DNA of 45,985 nt from Nitrosomonas sp. (GTDB lineage: Bacteria > Pseudomonadota > Gammaproteobacteria > Burkholderiales > Nitrosomonadaceae), in NCBI GenBank assembly GCA_021774265.1, contig JAJFJG010000213.1, forward strand, positions 1-45,985, written 5' to 3'. The notes under the pieces were generated by a model. It searched no databases. It was not told where the DNA came from and saw only the letters and a list, made by a program, of their open reading frames with translations. The position numbers were made by a program, and so were the translations under genes. The first letter of the stretch is position 1. The number at the start of each line of letters is the position of its first letter. Positions 22,498-25,305 of this stretch are shown here, one piece after another.

Positions 22498-22806
22498 ATG
22501 AAAAAATTGAATTTAGTATTCTGCATTTCTGCATTGGCTGTTTTGGTTGGCTGCGGAAGTGGAAGTGATTACACGCCTGCAGTAGATGCTAGTGGTGAGC
22601 AAATATTTTCTACTGCTTGTACGGAATGTCATAAGCCAGTAAATGCTGATGTTGCGATGATAATCAGCGAAGGGATGGCAAATAAAGATGCAATTATTAA
22701 TAAAGTACAGTCAGGGAGCATGAGAATGACAGCTTTCCCAAATATTCAGGGTGATGCGGCAGATCGTTTGGCTGAGTATATATTGGCAAATAGCGCGACT
22801 CAATAA
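22498..22806 (+). CDS. Lipoprotein monoheme c-type cytochrome
   Basis: Lipobox LVGC, heme motif CTECH, candidate distal Met in SGSMRMTAFP. 102 aa. Confidence 0.88.
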   Translation: MKKLNLVFCISALAVLVGCGSGSDYTPAVDASGEQIFSTACTECHKPVNADVAMIISEGMANKDAIINKVQSGSMRMTAFPNIQGDAADRLAEYILANSATQ

Positions 22807-22850: not shown

Positions 22851-24290
22851 CTAGATTGTGTTCGTGATGATACGTCGTTCATTATATTCTCGTAGGTATT
22901 TATCAAAAACCATACATATACTACAGATTAACAACCTGCCTTTTGGTGTGACGGTCATTTCTTCATCATTCAACGTTACTAAACCTAGTTTTTTATATTC
23001 CAATAGTTCAACCATTTCTGTTCCAAAATAGTGCTTAAAATCTATAGGAAATGCGGTTTCTATTAATTCGAATGATAGTATGGAATTACACATTAACATG
23101 TGCATAACCAAGCGTCGTAATAAATCGTCAGTTGTTAATTTCAGGCTGCGCATGATGGGTAGCGTGTTTTGTTTTAATTTGTGATAATACTGATCAAAGT
23201 CGCAGTAATTTTGACTATAGGTTGGCCCAATACTACCGATCGCAGAAACCCCTAACCCAATTAGGTCGCAATCAACGTGTGTCGAGTAACCTTGGAAATT
23301 AAGATAAAGTCGGCCTTGCTGTAACGCGACAACTAACTTGTCGTCATGTCTTGCAAAATGATTGATGCCAATGTGAACATACTCATGTTTTGTTAGCTGA
23401 TTAATGGCATGCCGAATGATTTCTAGTTTGGCTTCAGTTAATGGCGAATCTTTTACTTTAATACGTCTCTGTGCCTTAAAGTTTTCAGGCAAATGAATGT
23501 AATTTACTAAAGAAATTCTGTTGGGACGCGCATTAATAATTTTTTCTAGTGTTCGATCAAACTTATCGATATTTTGCTTGGGCAATCCATAGGCTAGGCC
23601 AATGTTGATGGAGTTGAATTTTTCCTGTTGCGCTTCATGTATGACGCGCAAAGTATCATCTTCATTCTGATTACGATGTGCAGTCTGTTGTACCTCACAG
23701 TCAAAATCTTGCACACTCAAAGTAATGCTGTTGAAGCCTATTTCTCTCAGTATTGATATCGAGCCATTTTTTGTTAAGCGCGGGTCGACCTCGATCGCGC
23801 ATTCTCCATTTTTTGTGAGGCTGAAATATTGATAGATTCCGCTTATTAATCGATACAGCTGATCCTCATTTAGCATGGAAGGCGTTCCGCCACCAAAGTA
23901 AACTTGTTCTACAGAAGTGTCATTCTGGAATAACTCTTTTTGTAATTTTATTTCGCGTAAAAGAAAGCTGATATATTTCTCAATATCAGCTTTCTTATTT
24001 GTATTGATATGATTGTGTTTGTAATAAAAGCATAACGATCTACAGAATGGGATGTGCGCATAAATAGATAAAGGTCGGCGAGCGCCGCCGATTTTGCGAT
24101 TTTCAGCCCAATTTTCATGGGCAGATGCATCAAAGGTGTCTATAAAATAATCAATGCTTGGGTACAGTGGATAGTTCGGCATTTTAATGTCAAAACGACG
24201 AATAACATCGAGATCAGCTTCAAGCGTTCCAATGGGGTTTAGTGAGTACACAGGGGTGTCTCTTATATTTGTGGTGCGTTGATAAGTCAA
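22851..24290 (-). CDS. HemN-family protein (oxygen-independent coproporphyrinogen III oxidase-like) with degenerate radical-SAM Cys motif
   Basis: HemN-like throughout (VIRRFDIKMPNYPLYPSIDYF, YFGGGTPSMLNEDQL, SLSVQDFDCEVQQTAHRNQ, NFQGYSTHVDCDLIGLGVSAIGSIG), but HIPFCRSLCFYYKHN in place of HIPFCxxxCxxCxC. Confidence 0.88.
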   Translation of the reverse strand: MTYQRTTNIRDTPVYSLNPIGTLEADLDVIRRFDIKMPNYPLYPSIDYFIDTFDASAHENWAENRKIGGARRPLSIYAHIPFCRSLCFYYKHNHINTNKKADIEKYISFLLREIKLQKELFQNDTSVEQVYFGGGTPSMLNEDQLYRLISGIYQYFSLTKNGECAIEVDPRLTKNGSISILREIGFNSITLSVQDFDCEVQQTAHRNQNEDDTLRVIHEAQQEKFNSINIGLAYGLPKQNIDKFDRTLEKIINARPNRISLVNYIHLPENFKAQRRIKVKDSPLTEAKLEIIRHAINQLTKHEYVHIGINHFARHDDKLVVALQQGRLYLNFQGYSTHVDCDLIGLGVSAIGSIGPTYSQNYCDFDQYYHKLKQNTLPIMRSLKLTTDDLLRRLVMHMLMCNSILSFELIETAFPIDFKHYFGTEMVELLEYKKLGLVTLNDEEMTVTPKGRLLICSICMVFDKYLREYNERRIITNTI

Positions 24291-24312
24291 CGATACAAGA
24301 TTAAATAACCAT

Positions 24313-24328
24313 TACCATTAAAATGGTA
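24313..24328. promoter_or_regulatory. Inverted repeat TACCATT-AA-AATGGTA, candidate operator in the hemN/fnr intergenic region
   Basis: Perfect 7-bp arms read directly from sequence. Confidence 0.35.
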
Positions 24329-24510
24329 CCAATTAATTTAAGATCAACAAAAGGAAAAGACAGGGTCTCCTACGCTTGGTCGACTAATTGTTCGGTTGTT
24401 ATTTAATTCGAGAATTTTAAAAATATGCCTAAGCAATAACTTTCACTTCAAGAATGCCCTTTTTTACAACAAAGTCGGTAAAATGATACCTGCAGTGGAG
24501 TTTTCTTGTT

Positions 24511-24524
24511 TTGATCCATGTCAA
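24511..24524. promoter_or_regulatory. FNR-box candidate
   Basis: TTGATCCATGTCAA versus consensus TTGAT-N4-ATCAA (9/10 conserved positions), 31 bp upstream of the FNR-like ORF start. Confidence 0.65.
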
Positions 24525-24555
24525 TGCAAGGGATAATGAAGAGTAATTTTCTTAT

Positions 24556-25305
24556 TTGAGAAATGCAGTTTTACAAGATACCTTGACACCAAAGCATCTT
24601 AAAGCCTCACATATACAACCGAATTGTTCAACGTGTAGCTTGCGAGAACTGTGCTTGCCTGTAGGCCTTGATGAACCAGAAGTCGAGGCTCTTGGTGATT
24701 TAGTTAATCATAAATGTCAGGTTAAACGTGGTGAATATTTGCATCGAGCAGGTTCAGACTTTAAGTCACTTTACGCGGTACGTAGGGGGGTTTTTAAAAC
24801 TTGCATCCTAGAAAAAGATGGCCGTCAGCAAGTGACTGGTTTTCATATGACGGGAGAGTTAATTGGGTTGGATGCGATTAGCACAGAGCGACATACTTGT
24901 GATGCCATTGCGCTAGAAGATAGTGAGGTATGCGAAATTCCATTTGCTAAACTTGAAGAAATGGGCCGAAATATTCCGCCATTAATGCATCATTTTCATA
25001 AAATAATGAGCCGCGAAATTGTAAAAGATCATGGTGTGATGATGTTGCTTGGTAGCATGAAAGCAGAAGAACGTTTGGCTACCTTCTTGTTGAATTTATC
25101 GCGTCGTTATTTTAAGCGAGGTTATTCTTCTTCTGATTTTATCTTGCGTATGACACGAGAAGAGATAGGAAGTTATCTAGGTCTTAAGTTGGAAACTGTA
25201 AGTCGTGCTTTTTCCAGGCTACAGGAAGAGGGCATTATTACAGTGAAGAACAAACATATAAATATTAGTGATATTGACCGCCTAAGAAGCAAAATTGGCG
25301 GTTAA
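24556..25305 (+). CDS. fnr: FNR-type Crp/Fnr transcriptional regulator
   Basis: N-terminal CSTCSLRELC (C-x2-C-x5-C) plus central Cys in VCEIPF gives four FNR [4Fe-4S] ligands. Recognition helix ETVSRAFSRLQEEG with E--SR. Confidence 0.92.
   Translation: MRNAVLQDTLTPKHLKASHIQPNCSTCSLRELCLPVGLDEPEVEALGDLVNHKCQVKRGEYLHRAGSDFKSLYAVRRGVFKTCILEKDGRQQVTGFHMTGELIGLDAISTERHTCDAIALEDSEVCEIPFAKLEEMGRNIPPLMHHFHKIMSREIVKDHGVMMLLGSMKAEERLATFLLNLSRRYFKRGYSSSDFILRMTREEIGSYLGLKLETVSRAFSRLQEEGIITVKNKHINISDIDRLRSKIGG

Follow-up and report, generated by a model that had tools for sequence, protein, structure and literature searches.

The hemN gene of Nitrosomonas may have turned into the gene of a pseudoenzyme, which part of the genus would keep for a role independent of the iron-sulfur cluster; we give this reading a probability of about 0.52. 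The copy considered here lies in a stretch of 45,985 nucleotides (hereafter the window), contig 128 in a draft genome of 3.4 Mb whose nearest named relatives are MAGs of Nitrosomonas. The three-cysteine [4Fe-4S] site (CX3CX2C) of its product is incomplete, and by this site the protein does not qualify as a functional radical-SAM enzyme. Pseudoenzyme relatives of HemN are already known, both in name (PsgB) and in function (HemW, CgdH2). What is unusual is the repetition of the loss within one genus and the selection that persists after it. Repeated loss of a catalytic site beside intact lineages of the same genus represents a natural experiment in the conversion of a radical-SAM enzyme to a pseudoenzyme.

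The hemN gene of the window and its locus

The hemN orthologue occupies positions 22851..24251 of the minus strand and encodes 466 aa from a GTG start, with no stop or frameshift. The intact frame of 479 aa described in the earlier note is present as well (ORF 22851-24290, minus strand, from an alternative TTG start at 24290), and the GTG at 24251 matches homologues better. On the minus strand, the codons GCG CAC ATC CCA TTC TGT AGA TCG TTA TGC TTT TAT TAC AAA CAC AAT give AHIPFCRSLCFYYKHN, which contains the degenerate radical-SAM motif HIPFC-RSL-C-FY-Y-K-H (24010..24059, minus strand). Mapped on E. coli HemN, the first two cluster cysteines, C62 and C66, are kept as C70 and C74. The third, C69, is replaced by tyrosine (Y77; codon TAC at 24021..24023, minus strand), where the closest relative, G085, has TGC, and the fourth, C71, is replaced by histidine (H79; 24015..24017, minus strand), a position gone in nearly all Nitrosomonas. 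The window motif is CRSLCFYYKHN, so that the earlier note was right about both replacements, and its suggestion of a HemN-family protein unable to bind a normal radical-SAM cluster is supported.

Further motifs are altered. GPRYTSYPTA and RNFQGYTT have been described as motifs for coproporphyrinogen dehydrogenase activity (PMC10320005). The site of the former reads MPNYPLYPSI in the window protein (MPNYPLYP at 24159..24182, minus strand), which includes R22 changed to N26 and agrees with the NYPLYPS previously reported in place of GPRYTSYPT. The site of the latter is LNFQGYST, in which the core with F310 and Q311 is kept and R308 has become leucine (LNFQG at 23289..23303, minus strand); most other Nitrosomonas carry Y-G-L-Q-G. 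Additionally, glycine (G218; 23598..23600, minus strand) stands at D209, an invariant position of canonical HemN that is still Asp in the sister G085.

The overall fold is predicted to be preserved. E. coli HemN (1olt) is the best PDB match of the window protein by sequence and by predicted fold. The AlphaFold2 model has a mean pLDDT of 88 and TM scores of 0.89/0.96 against 1olt, with 39% identity in the structural alignment. For the cluster-free G092 protein, the model likewise shows the HemN fold (TM 0.86/0.91), a result favoured by the shared alignment; pLDDT values under 50 are confined to the cluster loop (73-83), one short loop (251-258) and the ends of the protein. The HemN fold is kept in the predicted structures of both proteins. 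Profile searches point the same way for the window protein, which matches TIGR00538 at 444.9 bits (cut-off 324.95) and PF04055 at 55.9 bits (cut-off 29.5), the latter starting at profile position 10. The TIGR00538 score does not discriminate, since the G092 copy, devoid of triad cysteines, passes with 334.6 bits; the G013 copy falls just below the cut-off. Because TIGR00538 names proteins with an incomplete site coproporphyrinogen oxidase, database annotation is unreliable for Nitrosomonas hemN. Metabolic models of ammonia oxidisers may consequently assign the anaerobic heme step to many species from which it is very probably absent.

The gene sits in a conserved setting. A gene for an Fnr/Anr-type regulator (24556..25305, plus strand), present in 82 of 85 Nitrosomonas genomes, is divergent from hemN, and a small c-type cytochrome gene with a cbb3-III type domain (22498..22806, plus strand) is the conserved neighbour at its 3' end. 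The order rpsB-fnr <> hemN-small cytochrome c recurs in nearly every Nitrosomonas locus with enough contig, and fnr adjoins hemN in canonical relatives outside Nitrosomonas too. A match to hemN beyond HemW occurs in 47 of the 85 genomes, at 48 loci in all, and no second hemN was found in the window genome. Given this fixed ancestral fnr-hemN locus, the window gene is an orthologue, and the paralogue suggested in the earlier note is rejected. Where hemN is deleted, this small, lipoprotein-like cytochrome gene stays beside fnr, often diverged (45-50% identity).

An Fnr/Anr-like box, TTGACATGGATCAA, lies between hemN and fnr (24511..24524, minus strand) and is conserved in hemN-bearing relatives. 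By chance alone, the window would contain 0.56 matches to this pattern, and the support for the box is thus its conservation: with at most one mismatch, it occurs at 45 of the 46 hemN-bearing loci versus 5 of 17 without the gene, in counts that ignore phylogeny. The box is nearer to fnr and may serve that gene as well. The intergenic region (24252-24555 in the window) spans about 140-370 bp in Nitrosomonas versus about 80-180 bp in most canonical relatives; the Nitrosomonas box stays near fnr, hence farther from hemN.

Motif shift and cysteine loss in the genus

The motifs of HemN have shifted throughout Nitrosomonas. GPRYTSYPTA is gone from all 47 readable copies and C71 from 44 of them (three retain it), and most rows carry R308Y, N309G, F310L and D209E. 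Among the papers searched, none was relevant to the HemN mutants Y56A, Q311A or F310L or to hemN in Nitrosomonas, so no claim here rests on the effect of an F310 mutation. Outside the genus, CxxxCxxCxC is present in 76/76 loci from the collection scan, and GPRYTSYPT in 76 loci; this set is 76 of 77 counted, as L113, labelled Betaproteobacteria, was dropped because it carries the divergent L027 sequence (G004, a Nitrosomonas). Since the loss of C71 is nearly genus-wide, the window gene inherited it, and only the third cysteine changed on the window's own branch.

The fourth cysteine of CX3CX2CXC is described as taking part in catalysis (PMC10964404), and its absence is a signature of HemW (PMC11442138). 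Moreover, HemF is intact in the window genome and was found in 57 of 61 relatives searched, so that the coproporphyrinogen step is covered. Judging from their motifs, the HemN proteins of Nitrosomonas very probably do not carry out this step. In G023, hemF appears broken (pieces with stops at G023:C118:3694-4160), its hemN has CxxxCxxC, and an assembly error is possible. A HemN-level match was found in 0 of 23 genomes of a sister genus (g27). G109, from another genus of the family, has a HemN-like gene with canonical CxxxCxxCxC (L169, on G109:C6) among unrelated genes, next to a dioxygenase-like gene and a radical-SAM gene of the B12-binding type; the contamination of this genome is 8%.

The loss of cluster cysteines, which the earlier note proposed to look for in related strains, is common in the genus. 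The triad is incomplete in 17 of 47 Nitrosomonas rows versus 0 of 76 relatives outside (Fisher p about 1e-8, phylogeny ignored). Dollo counting on the ML tree gives six losses of C62, five of C66, eight of C69 and nine of the complete triad, the last figure depending on one grouping with 70% support and becoming 10 without it. By this reconstruction, the cluster triad was lost at least nine independent times. The copies of G092, G025 and G002 have no triad cysteine at all and are still full-length in frame. Of the 29 readable triad-complete rows, 27 have an intact SAM-binding motif GGGxP, versus four of the 17 triad-lost rows, the window being among these four. Furthermore, residues new to Nitrosomonas (Y308, L336, Y109 and L25) persist in 15 to 16 of the 17.

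In 38 of the 85 species, hemN is a relic or was not found, and any role it has must therefore be dispensable. Genomes that lack hemN still have fnr. Frame-broken pieces lie between fnr and the cytochrome gene in G010, G026, G084, G094, G100 and G101; the other hemN-less genomes examined have an empty fnr-to-cytochrome space, that is, a clean deletion. Among the triad-lost relatives, only G028 has a late frameshift, and apparent internal stops in several others were actually natural C-terminal stops.

Selection and competing explanations

Full-length orthologues with an older cluster loss evolve under purifying selection. Pairwise codon-model ML estimates of omega (own code), pooled by class, are 0.048 (0.038-0.059) for canonical HemN, 0.139 (0.118-0.160) for triad-complete Nitrosomonas, 0.227 (0.193-0.272) where the triad was lost before the pair split and 0.350 (0.280-0.419) where the loss is recent or one-sided. 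Omega = 1 is rejected in all four classes, which answers the question of dN/dS across orthologues raised before. In the older triad-lost lineages (n=5 pairs), individual values range over 0.14-0.40 and omega = 1 is strongly rejected (2dL 349). All pairs are intact ORFs and thus a selected sample; absent stop codons are therefore no proof of function, and this argument was dropped. The constraint is relaxed locally, in the radical-SAM core and little in the C-terminal half: omega for residues 131-260 is 0.310 in triad-lost versus 0.126 in triad-complete pairs, and for residues 341-447 it is 0.169 versus 0.142.

The preferred reading orders these observations as follows, its first two steps resting on sequence comparison. 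Early in the genus, GPRYTSYPTA, the fourth cysteine and, in most lineages, RNFQGY were lost, while HemF supplies the step. Once that chemistry could be dispensed with, the [4Fe-4S] triad disappeared on at least nine occasions; in the window species, C69 was lost after the split from the closest relative. The retention of a folded protein in about half of the genus, with its Fnr box and with purifying selection strongest in the C-terminal half, suggests a cluster-independent role. Most plausibly, and as a conjecture from ancestry, porphyrinogen, porphyrin or heme would bind in the former active-site barrel, with the protein acting as a tetrapyrrole buffer or carrier at low oxygen. In other species, even the retained role would have become dispensable and the gene deleted.

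The strongest competitor is plain decay, in which an aerobic nitrifier with HemF had no further use for hemN, selection relaxed, and the gene in the window is a pseudogene at an early stage, its frame still open and no new function gained. We regard this as somewhat unlikely. In its favour, a single locus offers the whole series from intact through triad-lost and frameshifted (G028) copies to relics and clean deletion with fnr beside cytochrome c. The stepwise rise of omega from canonical to triad-lost copies is also what plain relaxation would give, which is a counterpoint to the pseudoenzyme reading. However, the older triad-lost orthologues, with their pooled omega well below 1, intact ends and conserved Fnr boxes, speak against simple decay. 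The early-stage pseudogene proposed in the earlier note may hold for the window species and is insufficient as an account of the genus.

For the window itself, the comparison with its closest relative is informative. G085 is 85% identical and has CxxxCxxC, and hence the C69Y change of the window is recent, dating from after their split. The earlier note had named canonical cysteines in all close orthologues as a finding that would speak against it, which is borne out only by half: the triad of G085 is complete, this copy has no fourth cysteine either, and other orthologues lost one to three cysteines independently. On the window side of the split, C69Y is accompanied by D209G, G281E and R308L, all at sites otherwise kept, as decay would predict. 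Omega between window and sister is 0.34, an average over the time before and after the loss of C69; it exceeds that of most neighbouring genes (0.05-0.21; BCCT transporter gene 0.30), in line with decay, yet it is below 1 (2dL 34) and the frame is unbroken, which speaks against it. A terminal-branch omega for the window with G096 as outgroup was discarded: synonymous changes cannot be polarised, and the excess can be placed on one tip or the other with about the same fit. In a relative-rate test, 24 amino-acid changes were unique to the window protein and 15 to that of the sister, a difference that falls short of significance (chi2 2.1), and acceleration is therefore not claimed even though the window's tree branch is longer. 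Because the time since the loss is too short to measure, a pseudogene of recent origin whose frame is still open has to be taken seriously as an alternative for the window species.

It is improbable that the protein is still a radical-SAM enzyme, holding a cluster on C62, C66 and, as an atypical third ligand, Tyr at 69 or His at 71. The window does retain C62, C66, Y56, H58, GGGTP, E145 and Q311. Nevertheless, D209 and C69 both disappeared on the window side of the split, and in other lineages it is C62 or C66 that is missing, so that no single replacement ligand is conserved. A radical-SAM enzyme with a Tyr ligand is not known. A sequencing or assembly error in the MAG, with TGC misread as TAC, would require only the one-base difference from the sister and is very improbable, because C69Y arose separately in G027 (TAC) and G108 (TAT), C62 or C66 is lost elsewhere, the window also carries D209G, and the genus pattern stands without this base. 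The two substitutions to which the earlier note appealed differ in age and weight, the loss of C71 being inherited.

Comparison with known HemN relatives

The window protein resembles HemN/CgdH (E. coli HemN, PDB 1OLT; TIGR00538) in its locus beside fnr, its full-length alignment, its predicted fold and its score above the cut-off. Unlike HemN/CgdH, it has an incomplete triad and is devoid of the fourth cysteine, GPRYTSYPTA, R308 and D209. HemW (TIGR00539) is likewise a HemN relative without the fourth cysteine and without coproporphyrinogen activity, which binds heme and passes it on (PMC11442138, PMC10964404). By analogy, HemW is the nearest model for how the window protein might work. HemW differs in having CxxxCxxC and the heme motif HNxxYW; membership in HemW was rejected for the window protein, which scores 118 bits against a TIGR00539 cut-off of 205 and has no HNxxYW.

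Most other Nitrosomonas have a separate hemW. In the window genome (G000:C151, L198) and in G085 (G085:C457, L199), hemW is missing from its usual site after an ABC-transporter permease gene on an unbroken contig. No HemW was found elsewhere in the window or G085 assembly, and G019 is also without a HemW match. A bolder version of the pseudoenzyme reading is that HemN was converted into an Fnr-controlled, cluster-free protein that binds or moves tetrapyrroles and that, in the hemW-less lineage of the window, may have assumed some of the heme-carrier role of HemW; this we consider doubtful.

Two further systems offer precedents. PsgB (TIGR04419) is, by its NCBIfam model name, a HemN-related non-iron pseudo-SAM protein and thus a precedent for a HemN relative free of the iron site. 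Compared with PsgB, the loss in Nitrosomonas is recent and repeated inside one genus, and membership was rejected at 30.4 bits against a cut-off of 300. CgdH2 of Campylobacter jejuni is HemN-like, has no coproporphyrinogen dehydrogenase activity and receives heme from ferrochelatase (PMC10320005). It differs in that it retains CX3CX2CXC, groups with MenK methyltransferases and is only distantly similar to HemN. No earlier paper on cluster-free HemN in Nitrosomonas was found in a search that left most subscription journals outside, which makes this a weak negative. Finally, the window genome contains two similar loci (L005 on G000:C183 and L006 on G000:C42), in both of which a radical-SAM gene precedes a bioF-like gene of 390 aa that is near-identical between the two, a pair that may stem from duplication or from the presence of two strains in the bin.
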